From contig NZ_JACHND010000001.1 in assembly GCF_014205275.1 (NCBI RefSeq), positions 310,001-374,000 on the forward strand: a stretch of 64,000 nucleotides of DNA. The letters are read 5' to 3'. Positions 56,235 to 62,133 of the stretch are shown here, in pieces. Position 1 is the first letter of the stretch. Every line of letters begins with the position of its first letter. The notes beneath the pieces are model-generated. The model ran no database searches. It was given only the letters and a program-made list of their open reading frames with translations, and was not told where the DNA came from. This DNA is from Sphaerisporangium siamense (GTDB lineage Bacteria; Actinomycetota; Actinomycetes; Streptosporangiales; Streptosporangiaceae). A program made the position numbers and the translations under genes.

Positions 56235-59200
56235 ATGCAGTTCGGCATCCTGGGTCCCACGGAAGTCCTCCGCGACGGACGCCATGTCCCCGTCGGCGGG
56301 CCCATGGTGCGCGCCCTGCTCGCCTTCCTGCTGCTGGACGCCGGGCGGGTGGTCGGCGTGGCCCGGCTGATCGACGGCCTGTACGGGGAGAGCGCGCCGT
56401 CGGCGAACGCGTTGCAGTCCCAGGTGTCCCGGCTGCGCCGCATCCTCGGCGACGGGCTCGTCGAGTCCCACCCGCTCGGGTACCGCCTCGCCGTCGCGCC
56501 CGGCGACGTGGACGTCCACCGGTTCACGGAGCTGGCCCGGCAGGGGCACGAGGCGCTCGCCGCCGGGGACGCCGGCGCCGCCGCCGCCGTGCTGCGCGAG
56601 GCCCTGGGGCTGTGGCGGGGCGCCGCGCTCGCCGACATCGGCGGGGCGCCGTTCGCGTACGGGCAGGTCACGCGGCTCACCGAGCTGCGGGTCACCGCCA
56701 CGGAGGACCGCGTCGAGGCCGACCTCGCGCTCGGCGCGCACCACACGCTGGTCGCCGAGCTGCGCGACCTGGTGGCGGCGCACCCGCTGCGGGAGCGGCT
56801 GTGGGGCCAGCTCATGCGCGCCCTGTACGCGTGCGGGCGGCAGGCCGAGGCCCTGGCCGCGTTCGCCGACGCCCGCCGGACGTTGGCCGACGAGCTCGGC
56901 GCGGACCCGTCCCCGGAGCTGGCCGCCCTCCACGTCCGCCTCCTGCGCGGCGAGGAGACCGCCGCCGGAGAGATGAGTGACGTGCCGTCCGCGGTCGCGC
57001 CGGGGCCGCGGACGGCGCTGCCCGCCGCGCTGACCGGCTTCGTCGGACGGGAGGAGGAGCTGGCGCGCGTCCGCGAGCTGATCGGCCGGGAGCGGCTGGT
57101 CACGCTGAGCGGGCCGGGCGGCACCGGCAAGACCCGCCTGGCCGTCGAGGCCGCGCGGCGGGTGGCGGCGGCGGGCGGGGAGGTCGGCTTCGTCGAGCTG
57201 GCCCCGCTCGGCGACGGCGCCGAGGTGCCGCAGGCCGTGCTGTCCGCGCTCGGGCTGCGCGAGGGCGGGCTGCGTCCGCCGTCGCCCGCGGACGCCCGGA
57301 CGTGCACGGCCACCGAGCGCCTGGTCACCGCGCTGGCCGGACGGGAGACCCTGCTCGTGCTCGACAACTGTGAGCACGTCCTGGACGAGGTCGCCGCCCT
57401 GGCCGGCCACCTGCTGGCCCGCTGCCCCGGCCTGCGCGTCCTCGCCACCAGCCGGGAGGCACTGGGCGTGCTCGGCGAGACCATCCACCCCGTCCCCCAG
57501 CTCGGGCTGCCGCCCGTCGACGCCACGGCCGAGGAGGCGGGCGCGTACCCGGCCGTGCGACTGTTCGCCGAGCGCGCCCGCGCCGTGCGCCCCGGCTTCC
57601 GGCTGGACGAGGCCGGCGCGGGCGAGGTCGCGCGCATCTGCCGGGTGCTGGACGGGCTGCCGCTGGCCATCGAGCTGGCCGCCGCGCGCCTGCGGTCGCT
57701 GACCGTGGAGGAGGTCGCGGCGCGGCTGGACGACCGGTTCGGCCTGCTCACCCGGGGCAACCGCGCCGCCCAGCCCCGGCACCGCACGCTGCGCGCGGTC
57801 GTCGAGTGGAGCTGGGACCTGCTGAACGAGGACGAGCGGGCGCTGGCCCGGCGGCTGACCGTGTTCTCCGGCGGCGCGACCGTGGCGGCGGCCGGCCGCG
57901 TCTGCGGGCCCGGCACCGTGGACCCGCTCGCCTCGCTCGCGGACAAGTCGCTGGTCGAGCTGGTCCACGGGCGGTACCGGATGCTGGAGACGATCCGGGC
58001 GTTCTGCGCCGAACGGCTGGCGGAGGCGGGCGAGGAGGAGGCCCTGCGGCGCGCCCACCTGGCGTACTACCTGGACCTGGCCGAGACGGCGGAGCCGTTC
58101 CTGCGGGACCGCGCGCAGCTCACCTGGCTGGAACGGCTCGACGCCGAGCGGGGCGACCTGCACGCGGCGGTCCGCTGGGCGGCGGAGGCGGGCGAGCACG
58201 CGGCGGCGGTCCGGCTGGTCGCCGCGCTGTCGCCGTACTGGCTGCTGCGCGGCAGGCGCAGCGAGGGCGGCAAGGCGGCGGGCGATGCGCTGGCCGCGAT
58301 CGGCGCGGCGGCGCCGCACGGGCTGGAGGAGGAGTACGTCCTGTGCGTGCTCGACGCCGCCGCGACCGGGGCGGCGGACAAGGCGGCGCTGGAGACGGCC
58401 GAGGCGCTGATGGCGGGCCGCCGGGTCGTCCGGCCGTTCCTCACGCTGCTGTGGGGCAGCTTCTCCGGCATGTCCACCGGCCAGGCCGACCCGCGTGACG
58501 CCGCGGACCCGTGGACGCGGGCGCTCACCCATCTCGGCCTGGGGTACCGGTCGTGGTGGGCCGAGGGCGACCTGGCGGAGGCCGAGCACGCGTTCTCGCT
58601 GGCCCTGGCCGGGTTCCGCGGCGTGGGAGAACGCTGGGGCATGGCCACCGCGCTCGGCGCGCTGGCCGTGCTCGCGGACCTGCGCGGCGACGCCGGGCGG
58701 TCGGCGGCGCTCACCGACCAGGCCCTGGAGCTGACGGGCGTGCTCGGCGCCACCGAGGACATGGCCGACCTGCTGCACCGCCGCGCCGACGCGTGCCTGC
58801 GCCGCGGCGACCTCGACGCCGCCCGGGGCGACTACGAGCGCGGGATCGAGCTCGGCCGCCGCGCGGGCATGCCCGGCGCGCTCGCCCGGGGCCACCACGG
58901 CCTGGCCGAGATCGCCCGCCGGCGCGGGAACGTCGCCGAGGCGCGGCGGCTCTGCCACGAGGCGCTGGCCGAGTGCCCGGCCGGGTGGATCACCACCGAG
59001 CAGACCCGGGCCCGCGTCTCGGTCACCTTGGCACGGCTGGCCGTGGCCGAGGGCGAGACCGCGCAGGCCAAGAGGTGGCTGCGGCGGGCGCTGTCGGGCG
59101 GCGCGGCCACCCAGGACCTCGGCGTCGCGGCCCTCGCCGTGTGGACGCTCGCCGAGGTCGCGCTGGCCGGCCACGAGGACGAGAAGGCCGCCCGCCTGCT

Positions 59201-59354
59201 CGGCGCGCACGCGGCCCTGCGCGGCGAGCCTCCGGACCCGGCGCTTCCCGCGCGGTGCCGGTCCCGGCTGGGCGACGTCCCGTACGAGCAGGCGTACGAG
59301 AGCGGCCGTCGCATGTCCCCAGAAGAAGCCCTCACCACCTTCTCCCCCACCTGA
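56235..59354 (+). CDS. AfsR/SARP-family transcriptional regulator with NB-ARC and TPR
   Basis: A 1039-aa regulator. The OmpR-like winged helix (FGILGPTEVLRDGRHVPVGG; ANALQSQVSRLRRILGDG) and BTAD domain (to about residue 245) are followed by an NB-ARC ATPase. That ATPase has P-loop SGPGGTGKTRLA (near 295), LLVLDNCEHVLDEVA and RVLATSREALGVLGE. C-terminal TPR-like helices complete the protein. The ATG lies 8 nt after GATACT, so the message may be leaderless. No biosynthetic cluster is visible beside it, so its target genes are unknown. Confidence 0.93.
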   Translation: MQFGILGPTEVLRDGRHVPVGGPMVRALLAFLLLDAGRVVGVARLIDGLYGESAPSANALQSQVSRLRRILGDGLVESHPLGYRLAVAPGDVDVHRFTELARQGHEALAAGDAGAAAAVLREALGLWRGAALADIGGAPFAYGQVTRLTELRVTATEDRVEADLALGAHHTLVAELRDLVAAHPLRERLWGQLMRALYACGRQAEALAAFADARRTLADELGADPSPELAALHVRLLRGEETAAGEMSDVPSAVAPGPRTALPAALTGFVGREEELARVRELIGRERLVTLSGPGGTGKTRLAVEAARRVAAAGGEVGFVELAPLGDGAEVPQAVLSALGLREGGLRPPSPADARTCTATERLVTALAGRETLLVLDNCEHVLDEVAALAGHLLARCPGLRVLATSREALGVLGETIHPVPQLGLPPVDATAEEAGAYPAVRLFAERARAVRPGFRLDEAGAGEVARICRVLDGLPLAIELAAARLRSLTVEEVAARLDDRFGLLTRGNRAAQPRHRTLRAVVEWSWDLLNEDERALARRLTVFSGGATVAAAGRVCGPGTVDPLASLADKSLVELVHGRYRMLETIRAFCAERLAEAGEEEALRRAHLAYYLDLAETAEPFLRDRAQLTWLERLDAERGDLHAAVRWAAEAGEHAAAVRLVAALSPYWLLRGRRSEGGKAAGDALAAIGAAAPHGLEEEYVLCVLDAAATGAADKAALETAEALMAGRRVVRPFLTLLWGSFSGMSTGQADPRDAADPWTRALTHLGLGYRSWWAEGDLAEAEHAFSLALAGFRGVGERWGMATALGALAVLADLRGDAGRSAALTDQALELTGVLGATEDMADLLHRRADACLRRGDLDAARGDYERGIELGRRAGMPGALARGHHGLAEIARRRGNVAEARRLCHEALAECPAGWITTEQTRARVSVTLARLAVAEGETAQAKRWLRRALSGGAATQDLGVAALAVWTLAEVALAGHEDEKAARLLGAHAALRGEPPDPALPARCRSRLGDVPYEQAYESGRRMSPEEALTTFSPT

Positions 59355-59491: not shown

Positions 59492-60544
59492 ATGCAGGCC
59501 GACAAACTGGACACCTATCGGAGCAAGCGCCACGCCGCCCGCACGCCCGAACCCGTGCCGGGCCCGGGCCCGCTTCCCGAAGGCCACGACGACACGTTCG
59601 TGATCCAGGAGCACCACGCCCGTCGCCTGCACTGGGACTTCCGCCTGGAGCGCGGCGGCGTGCTGGTCTCGTGGGCGGTCCCGAAGGGGTTGCCGCTCGA
59701 CCCGAAGACCAACCACCTCGCCGTCCCCACCGAGGACCACCCGCTGGAGTACGCGACGTTCGAGGGAGAGATCGCCCCGGGCGAGTACGGCGCGGGGCTG
59801 GTGCTCATCTGGGACCGGGGCGTCTACGAGACCGAGAAGTGGACCGACCGCGAGGTCAAGGTCGTGCTGCACGGCTCGCGGGTCTCCGGCCGCTACGTGC
59901 TGTTCCCGACCGGCGGCAGGAACTGGATGATCCACCGGATGGACCCCCCGCCACCCGAGGCCCCCACCTTCCTGCCGGGCCTGCGCCCGATGCTCCCCGA
60001 GGCCCGCAAGCGGCTCCCCCGCGACCAGGCGGCCTACGGCTTCGAGTTCGACCTCGGCGGCGACCGCGCCCTCGTCGCCGTCCGCGACGGCGAGACCCGC
60101 CTCCTCGGCCGCGCGGCGCCTTTCCGGGAGACCGGCCCCGACGGCACGGCCCACCCGCGCGGGGCCGGCACGCCCGCTCCGGAGGACGGCCCCGACCTGG
60201 GCGGCCTGCCCAAGGCGCTGCTCGACCTGCCCGCCGTCCTGGACGGCCAGATCGTCACGGTGGCCGGCGCGCGGGTCTACATGATCACCGACATCCTGCA
60301 CCTGGACGGCGGCGACCTCCTGGACCGCCCCTACCGGGACCGCCGCCGCACCCTCGACCACCTCAAGCTGAACGGCGGGCACTGGCAGACCACACCGTGG
60401 TTCCCCGGCGACGGCAGGGCCGTCATGAAGGTGGCGCACCGGCGCGGCCTGCCCGCCGTCCTCGCCAAACGCCTGGACAGTCCCTACCTCCCCGGCGCCC
60501 GATCCCCCTTCTGGGTCCGCGTCCCCGTCCCTCCGGCCGCCTGA
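59492..60544 (+). CDS. LigD-like 3'-phosphoesterase with a degenerate ligase domain
   Basis: A 350-aa protein. The N-terminal third is a LigD phosphoesterase domain (FVIQEHHARRLHWDFRLERG, VSWAVPKGLPLDP, GEYGAG, NWMIHRMDPPP), which trims 3' ends during Ku-dependent end joining. The rest aligns with the LigD ATP-dependent ligase domain (DILHLDGGDLLDRPYRDRRR; LAKRLDSPYLPGARSPFWV). However, the nucleophile motif is YGFEFDLGGDRAL instead of YEVKWDGVRAL, so the lysine is missing, and AVLDGEIV reads AVLDGQIV. The ligase half is probably inactive or structural. Confidence 0.9.
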   Translation: MQADKLDTYRSKRHAARTPEPVPGPGPLPEGHDDTFVIQEHHARRLHWDFRLERGGVLVSWAVPKGLPLDPKTNHLAVPTEDHPLEYATFEGEIAPGEYGAGLVLIWDRGVYETEKWTDREVKVVLHGSRVSGRYVLFPTGGRNWMIHRMDPPPPEAPTFLPGLRPMLPEARKRLPRDQAAYGFEFDLGGDRALVAVRDGETRLLGRAAPFRETGPDGTAHPRGAGTPAPEDGPDLGGLPKALLDLPAVLDGQIVTVAGARVYMITDILHLDGGDLLDRPYRDRRRTLDHLKLNGGHWQTTPWFPGDGRAVMKVAHRRGLPAVLAKRLDSPYLPGARSPFWVRVPVPPAA

Positions 60545-60839: not shown

Positions 60840-61721
60840 TCATCCCAAGAAGAGGTCCTCCACGGTCACCGCGGTCAACGCCCGCTGAAGCCACTCATCG
60901 AGTTGAGCGACGTCCGTGCAGGACTCGATGCGGCTCCGCGCCTCCTGCGTGACGACGATCGACCGACCGGAAAGAATCATGACGATCGCGTCTGCTTTGC
61001 CAGCCGCTATACCCTCATCTATACCCTCTTGCTTACCTTCGGCGAAGTATTTCCGGGCGAAATCGCTCTGGTACTCGTAGGTGCCTGCGGCCATCAGGAC
61101 CTCCCATTGCTTCGAAGCCGCCTCAGGAAGCTTCATCATGACGAAATCAGCGTACAACTTGGCCTGCCCTTCCTCGAGGGTGGACAGGGCTGTCAGCAAC
61201 GCCTCCAGGACGCGCTGCCCACCGACGTCACCGCCGTGCGCCAGCGCCGACAGGACGGCCAGTTCAGGCACTCTGATCGCCTCCGTCGGATCGGTCACCA
61301 CGGGGACCACCTCGGGGCTGACGACCATGGGAGCGAGCCGCCACCCGGGGTGCCCCATCTCGATAGGCTCCGCGCACCATCGCGCCGTCCGGGCGTCGGT
61401 GCAGACGACGAGCAGGATCGCGGGACAGCGAGCCCGTGCGCGGACCGCGGCCAGGTAGACCGGCCAGCTCCACCGCTTACCGTGATCGACGGCCCGCTGC
61501 ACCTCTACCACAACGGTCAGCACCGGCTTCCCGTTGGAGAACGTCACCACCGCGTCCGCCTGGTACTCCACCGGCGGGCACTGGGTCAGATCTCCCGACT
61601 CGATCCTGGCTTCGTGGTACTCCGGAACTTTCATCCCAAAAGGTCCGGCAAGCAATTTAGCCGCCAATTCAGGGCGATTCTTGAAGAGCAGGATCAACGT
61701 TTCATGTTCTTGTGAAGGCAC
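60840..61721 (-). CDS. Rpn-like PD-(D/E)xK nuclease-fold protein
   Basis: A 293-aa protein that often occurs in many copies in Streptosporangiales genomes. The N-terminal half has a nuclease-like core: VEYQADAVVTFSNGKPVLTV, then VVVEVQ (Asp ... E-x-Q), and RWSWPVYLAAVRARARCPAI. The C-terminal half is helical, with AEGKQEGIDEGIAAGKADAI typical of Rpn/transposase-associated proteins. GTG 61721 gives the usual start MPSQEHE; TTG 61745 is also open. Recombination-linked function is inferred from the family. Confidence 0.82.
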   Translation of the reverse strand: MPSQEHETLILLFKNRPELAAKLLAGPFGMKVPEYHEARIESGDLTQCPPVEYQADAVVTFSNGKPVLTVVVEVQRAVDHGKRWSWPVYLAAVRARARCPAILLVVCTDARTARWCAEPIEMGHPGWRLAPMVVSPEVVPVVTDPTEAIRVPELAVLSALAHGGDVGGQRVLEALLTALSTLEEGQAKLYADFVMMKLPEAASKQWEVLMAAGTYEYQSDFARKYFAEGKQEGIDEGIAAGKADAIVMILSGRSIVVTQEARSRIESCTDVAQLDEWLQRALTAVTVEDLFLG

Positions 61722-62133
61722 GGCGCCGAAGGTACCGGAGAACAAAGGCTTGGCAAAACTTCGTAAACTTCCATCTCAAGACAGGAGAATCAGTCGGGAT
61801 TCCCGCAAATCCTGGCAATTGCTTTGTATTCAAAAGGTAGATGGGGCTGCGCTCAGACGCAGAAGGCGATCCGCCCGGAGCGCCGTGGACGGTCGATGTG
61901 GTGATCAAGGCGGCGGCATGGTCGTGGCCCACTGGGCGAAGCTCGGGCGGGGGCCAGACCGACTCCCGATCAGCGCGGATGTGTGACGAACAACACGCCG
62001 ATCCGCCCTTGAGTTCACATGCCGTTTATAAACGGGCAACAGGCCAGAAATCGCCAGTTGGCAGTCTCGGCGTTGCGGGGGACGCGGATCGCCCCTGGTA
62101 CCTGCTCATATACGCCATGCCGAGGGGATCGAA
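61722..62133. other. Upstream region of glutamine synthetase, no gene
   Basis: No supported coding region. The stretch is lower in GC than the genes around it. The clear signal is a perfect 14-bp palindrome at 62021-62034, within 115 bp of the glnII start. I could not find a convincing GlnR box. Confidence 0.45.
62021..62034. promoter_or_regulatory. Perfect palindrome before glnII
   Basis: CCGTTTATAAACGG is self-complementary and AT-rich at its centre. It may be an operator or part of the promoter. Confidence 0.4.

Follow-up and report, generated by a model that had tools for sequence, protein, structure and literature searches.

What does a LigD-type protein do when its 3'-phosphoesterase (PE) half keeps the active site and its ligase half has lost the nucleophile? 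The gene that raises this question lies in the stretch of DNA analysed here (the window, 64,000 nucleotides). It begins with an ATG at 59492 and ends with a TGA at 60542-60544. The gene and its PE half comprise the following features, in window positions.

59492..60544, + strand: whole gene, PE and pseudo-ligase protein (350 amino acids plus stop; the start matches the N termini of homologues)
59594..59941, + strand: PE (LigD_N) domain, residues 35-150 (Pfam PF13298, 136 bits; predicted fold matches 3P43)
59612..59644, + strand: PE catalytic stretch H41, H47, D49, and R51 (H, H, D, and R in 66/66 pseudo-ligase and 70/70 intact aligned homologues, or rows)
59732..59752, + strand: PE stretch E81, D82, H83, and Y87 (66/66 pseudo-ligase and 70/70 intact rows)

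The PE half scored 136.1 against PF13298 (LigD_N; cutoff, 31.1) and 163.1 against the PE family TIGR02777, above the cutoff of 144. Its residues H41, H47, D49, R51, E81, D82, H83, and Y87 correspond to Pseudomonas aeruginosa H42, H48, D50, R52, E82, D83, H84, and Y88. All eight positions are invariant in the alignment, across the 66 pseudo-ligase and the 70 intact rows. The catalytic roles of H42, H48, D50, R52, H84, and Y88 are those given in the available text of a review (PMC8656161). The same text has residues 14, 15, 21, and 82 as needed for the 3'-phosphatase step. The protein has R13, E20, and E81 at three of these positions and His14 at the position of residue 15, where Asp stands in 56/66 pseudo-ligase and 54/70 intact rows. 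The review lists Arg15 among the PE residues (PMC8656161, available text); the P. aeruginosa chain has Asp at 15. The predicted PE fold matches 3P43 with a Z score of 19.6 over residues 33-152, at 54% identity. A reading made from the sequence alone (the sequence-only reading) had called the 3'-end trimming domain intact, and every PE His and Asp on which that claim depends is present.

The domain order is that of the PE-LIG and POL-PE-LIG forms of LigD (PRK09632, TIGR02777, and TIGR02779), with a PE domain that has its active site followed by a ligase nucleotidyltransferase (NTase) fold. Unlike these, the protein has no catalytic Lys, motif IV Glu, motif V Lys, OB domain, or POL. It also resembles the archaeal single-domain PE structures 3P43, 3P4H, and 5DMP (47 to 54% identity in fold matches), but adds a ligase-derived half. 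The features of that half are as follows.

59960..60532, + strand: pseudo-nucleotidyltransferase (dead ligase) domain, residues 157-347 (VIA fold match to 6NHZ; PF01068 below cutoff)
60044..60061, + strand: motif I remnant EFDLGG (E185, equivalent to E479, and G190 kept; D187 for the nucleophile K481 and G189 for D483)
60239..60256, + strand: motif III remnant LDGQIV (Q253 for E530)
60446..60469, + strand: motif IV remnant GLPAVLAK (P321 for E613; K326, equivalent to K618, kept)
60512..60526, + strand: motif V remnant WVRVP (R343 and P345 for K635 and K637; the protein ends 5 residues on, with no OB domain)

The ligase half falls below the cutoffs of both ligase families, with 24.6 bits against PF01068 (cutoff, 26.2) and 43 against TIGR02779 (cutoff, 228). 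A Pfam search of the protein gave no match to the OB domain (PF04679) and none to a POL domain. FEFDLGG spans residues 184 to 190 and places D187 where active ligases carry the nucleophilic Lys, which is present in 69/69 intact rows. The fold match of residues 157-347 to 6NHZ 451-639 gives the same register as the alignment, so D187 does occupy the K481 position. The claim that FEFDLGG replaces the EVKWDG nucleophile motif is borne out by both. The companion claim, Gln for Glu in motif III, is right for this protein (VLDGQIV, Q253) but not in general, as 38 of the 48 rows in its clade have Glu.

The losses are wider than the two first described. Motif IV is without its Glu and motif V without either lysine, and the OB domain is judged absent because the protein stops 5 residues past motif V. 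Intact homologues usually have an OB domain of about 120 to 130 residues, and at least 108 residues follow motif V in 66 of the 70 intact rows. The remaining intact rows have tails of 86, 11, and 0 residues (the last two at contig ends), with one further row. About 28 residues are missing between motifs III and IIIa in 47/48 clade rows, which have a median of 9 left versus 37 in intact rows. The alignment places Arg at the R501 and R629 positions of the protein (R207 and R337); the R501 equivalent is kept in just 4/66 pseudo-ligase rows. At the level of sequence, the second half has lost its ligase chemistry and is a pseudo-ligase, as proposed.

Another lysine could take over adenylation and keep the ligase half active. 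The only widely shared candidate is K326, conserved in 65/66 pseudo-ligase rows, but it is the ordinary K618 equivalent and is present in 69/69 intact rows. No substitute lysine is conserved in any other column of the dead half. All the other lysine columns hold Lys in fewer than 15 of 66 pseudo-ligase rows and in at most 10 of 48 clade rows. E613, K635, K637, and the OB domain are also gone. We regard residual activity of this kind as scarcely credible.

The dead half is predicted to keep the ligase NTase fold. The AlphaFold2 model, built with 70 sequences, had a pLDDT of 91.2 and a pTM of 0.83. Its residues 157-347 were matched to residues 451-639 of mycobacterial LigD 6NHZ (VIA Z, 20.5; rmsd, 2.2; 167 aligned residues). 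A version from Pseudonocardia (the first 335 residues of L156), which stands apart in the tree, was also predicted to have the NTase fold (pLDDT, 93.0; Z, 22.2). The alignments used for folding include intact ligases too, which favors the NTase fold; alignment A2 holds 69 of 80 loci. Likely fold-core residues are kept in the dead half of the protein (G190, D251, G252, D267, R284, R285, Y332, and W341).

Residue by residue, the 66 pseudo-ligase rows keep one set of ligase positions and lose another. E479 is kept in 64, R486 in 66, K618 in 65, and G484 in 66. K481 is kept in 0, E613 in 1, K635 in 1, K637 in 0, and R501 in 4. E530 (48), R629 (26), and D483 (12) are intermediate. Each of these residues is present in 69/69 intact rows, except K637 (61). 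According to the available text of PMC8656161, E479, K618, and R486 contact adenine and ribose, and most of the lost residues handle phosphates or metal. The pattern could fit a noncatalytic adenylate sensor. Its pocket would hold adenosine, whether of AMP, of ATP, or of DNA ends left 5'-adenylated by abortive ligation, and would send the PE half to ends whose 3' block stopped the ligase. The contrast between kept and lost residues is weaker than it looks because R501 and E530, often lost, likewise contact ribose in the adenylated enzyme (PMC8656161, available text). The protein itself has the R501 equivalent but Gln for E530. Motif V and the OB domain are gone as well, and the kept adenosine-pocket residues may serve nucleoside binding or only the fold. 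A sensor is an unlikely reading.

The same losses recur in relatives, as a survey of homologues, suggested with the first reading, made clear. Members of the protein's own clade were found in at least 35 of the 198 genomes searched with it, its own included. The clade contains 48 distinct Streptosporangiales rows, 35 from the searched genomes and 13 from a named scan. Named members come from Actinomadura, Nonomuraea, Streptosporangium, and a Sphaerisporangium bin whose sequence is identical to that of a genome of the same genus. Actinomadura, Nonomuraea, and the Sphaerisporangium bin belong to the order Streptosporangiales, and the clade spans two NCBI families. Other pseudo-ligases were found in Micromonospora, Phytohabitans, Amycolatopsis, Pseudonocardia, Cellulomonas, and Crossiella, in two metagenome bins (L123 and L146), and in two further genomes (L055 and L061). 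Intact PE-LIG proteins with a KWDG-type motif were found in other Actinomycetota, in Chloroflexota, and in five genomes of the protein's own family.

The survey extracted 150 rows. Eight duplicates were dropped, along with six rows that are fragments or hold PE alone (L057, L063, and L076 to L079). L065 and L151 were excluded from the tree, and L151 also from the residue counts. Stops flagged within some matches are terminal stops, and the frames reach the match end. Rows entered the survey as the best matches to the protein, so the ratio of 66 pseudo-ligase to 70 intact rows is not a prevalence.

In a tree of 134 rows with the motif columns removed, the 48 rows form one pseudo-ligase clade (SH-aLRT, 98). 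Parsimony on this tree puts the 66 pseudo-ligase rows at an estimated nine changes, and at least four are forced by the best-supported branches. A single ancient origin of all pseudo-ligases was rejected (AU p = 0.0004); forcing one clade costs 164 log units. These proteins, judged by their sequences, are a conserved pseudo-ligase branch of LigD that has been reached repeatedly. The sensor can also be put in a broader form. The proteins would then be a recurrent, selected class of DNA pseudo-ligases (at least four, probably about nine, origins) with the fold and most of the adenosine pocket kept. The pocket would read 5'-AMP-DNA from abortive ligation at 3'-blocked breaks, or cellular AMP or ATP, and would recruit or activate the fused trimmer. 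We consider this form improbable as well.

Some rows suggest the order of loss. Three rows without the motif I Lys keep an OB-length tail, L134 and L158 from Amycolatopsis, where two of three pseudo-ligases have an OB domain, and L152 from Crossiella. Pfam matches the OB domain in L134 and L158. Among the 70 rows with an intact motif, only L065 and L151 are without such a tail, and both are cut by contig ends. This suggests that the lysine was lost first. L134, L158, and L152 are possible intermediates. L152 has kept E613, K635, and the OB domain; its Lys may have been lost recently, or the sequence may be in error. L063 (G158), a contig-end fragment, is also without the motif I Lys. Two Pseudonocardia loci (L140:473-2452 and L156:5992-7917) are PE, pseudo-ligase, and POL fusions with a dead middle.

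Within the clade, the first branch is L023 (G120). It is the least reduced member: 37 residues remain between motifs III and IIIa, the R501 equivalent is present, and the same genome contains a PE-only open frame. G057 has a full pseudo-ligase gene and a second, broken copy (L076, contig G057:C193) whose PE part is 75% identical to that of the protein studied here. In L034 (G002), from the same genus, the PE-pseudo-ligase groups with other genera, and the fetched flank is without the neighbors shared in the genus. A transfer or replacement is possible there.

The clade may have arisen by complementary degeneration, in which a PE-LIG was duplicated, PE stayed in one copy, and LIG stayed in the copy next to ku. 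A topology that unites the clade with 11 ku-adjacent LIGs could not be rejected (p, 0.79) and had a likelihood higher by 13, but the two groups were not joined in a careful 70-row tree.

The dead half is under purifying selection, slightly relaxed. Its pooled dN/dS (w) was 0.294, and 12/12 close pairs were significant (p < 0.05). Intact NTase halves gave a pooled w of 0.226 (8 pairs), and PE halves gave 0.189 in the pseudo-ligase and intact sets alike. Pairs were picked by hand from the tree. Fourteen pseudo-ligase pairs were run; the pooled figure omits two of them, each of which overlapped another pair by a member. Their recurrence in relatives, together with purifying selection on the half, makes the losses more than chance. 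The protein has lost a catalytic motif and is kept by selection, the two marks of a pseudoenzyme. Pseudoenzymes are known in many enzyme families.

Decay of the half as a pseudogene on its way out would explain the loss of the catalytic residues, of the OB domain, and of the residues between motifs III and IIIa. It is contradicted by dN/dS well under 1, with purifying selection in every pair. The length from the aligned N terminus is also held at 310 to 344 amino acids in 45/48 clade rows, and open frames persist across a clade that spans two families. We consider decay very unlikely.

A more serious alternative, though still less likely than not, is that the half is a structural passenger. 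It would be kept only for the folding or stability of PE and have no partner of its own. Two observations speak for such a passenger: likely fold-core residues were retained while catalytic ones were lost, and the dead half is less constrained than PE (w, 0.29 versus 0.19). Other PE domains do without one. Some lie in open frames whose length leaves no room for a ligase half (196, 210, and 245 amino acids in G031, G120, and G040), and others have been solved as single domains (3P43 and 3P4H). A PE domain therefore need not have a ligase half; these examples come from other lineages and are thus not decisive. That relatives keep the dead half under selection suggests that it took on another job, for example holding the trimmer at breaks.

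The rest of the genome bears on what that job could be. The protein is not a canonical three-domain LigD, with POL, PE, and LIG in one chain; POL matches lie elsewhere in the genome. It is the sole LigD_N match there. The genome contains one Ku gene (C1:2744395), divergent to a POL of 302 amino acids, and three POL matches in all, two of them away from ku. It also contains an intact stand-alone LIG of 373 amino acids (L173) with EMKWDG, LDGEIV, WTKVK, and both ligase domains. There are two further PF01068 matches, which we take to be LigC- and LigB-like ligases. In this genome, Ku, one POL, LIG, and PE are thus each carried on a protein of their own. This resembles the split NHEJ of Streptomyces, where Ku, PolDom, and LigDom are on separate, scattered genes (PMC5124664, available text). 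PE sets the two apart. No NucDom (PE) gene was found in S. ambofaciens, and there were zero to one across the Streptomyces surveyed; no Streptomyces pseudo-ligase is mentioned in the available text of that paper (PMC5124664).

A single LigD_N match was found in 33 of the 35 clade genomes, and two matches each in G057 and G120. Ku is present in 34 (the exception, G077, is a 960-contig draft) and POL in all 35. Ku and POL were found in 170/198 and 171/198 genomes of the whole sample. Since both are common, their co-occurrence with the clade is weak evidence, consistent rather than telling. The gene is dispensable, because G009, from the same genus, has Ku and POL with no PE match. In 17 ku regions, a LIG is beside ku in 11, is split between frames in one (G078), and is missing in five, including the protein's own genome. 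At least one PF01068 match that is strong by E value was present in 30/30 genomes searched (best, 4.5e-40 or lower).

The reading we prefer, at a probability of about 0.55, is that the protein provides end healing in a split NHEJ system and that its pseudo-ligase half was kept as a docking module. The PE half would trim 3' ends, removing 3'-phosphates and 3'-ribonucleotides, as its intact active site implies. The second half is, by its sequence, an ATP-ligase NTase domain that is without the adenylation and sealing residues and without the OB domain but is predicted to keep its fold. Selection has kept it, most likely as a dock for PE at break complexes, on Ku, on DNA, or on a partner LIG or POL. 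Sealing would be left to a separate ligase, for example the stand-alone LIG elsewhere in the same genome. The first reading had proposed a tether to DNA ends or Ku without sealing. Such tethering is plausible, given the binding of Mycobacterium tuberculosis Ku to the LIG domain and the predicted retention of the NTase fold.

The M. tuberculosis interaction is the best support for docking. Ku binds the LIG domain of LigD directly, with a KD of 81 nM, and POL more tightly (PMC9638933, available text). The LIG construct used for binding contained the OB domain, and in the authors' judgment the contact of Ku with LIG likely has no link to ligation itself (PMC9638933). The contact seen there may need the OB domain, which is absent here. 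DNA binding by the dead half may be weak because that domain was lost. The net charge of the dead half is -1.3 in the clade mean, +5 in the protein itself, and +1.0 in intact homologues. With no OB domain and no positive charge across the clade, docking on DNA alone is disfavored.

The literature searched, mostly open-access papers, included work on TRIM E3 pseudoligases and on pseudoenzymes, but we found no DNA pseudo-ligase described there. The best analogue is the noncanonical prokaryotic PolX, a repair protein in which a dead synthetic half is joined to a half with active, Mn-dependent 3'-5' exonuclease; the genomes that encode it are enriched for NHEJ genes (PMC9226535, available text). 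PolX is of another family, with a PHP domain, and the likeness is one of analogy and not homology.

A conserved pseudo-DNA-ligase that evolved repeatedly and is joined to an end-healing domain that appears active would amount to a separation-of-function LigD made by nature. It would let one ask which roles LIG has in NHEJ beyond sealing, such as Ku docking, end positioning, and handover. Surveys of NHEJ by domain presence could also mistake dead ligase halves for ligases.

The surroundings of the gene speak against the preferred reading. It is not adjacent to ku, in contrast to several intact PE-LIG genes, and none of its neighbors is common beyond the genus, except at 31 to 44% identity. Glutamine synthetase and Clp protease neighbors (Pfam) are common within the genus only. 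Recurrent neighbors of other loci were listed for four loci. Downstream in the window, an open reading frame of 301 amino acids (60840-61745, - strand) had no Pfam match at an E value of 0.001. Upstream, at 56235-59354 on the + strand, is a regulator with BTAD, AAA, and TPR matches that ends 137 bases before the PE-pseudo-ligase gene. This regulator is 93% identical in G007 and 31 to 35% identical in three other loci.
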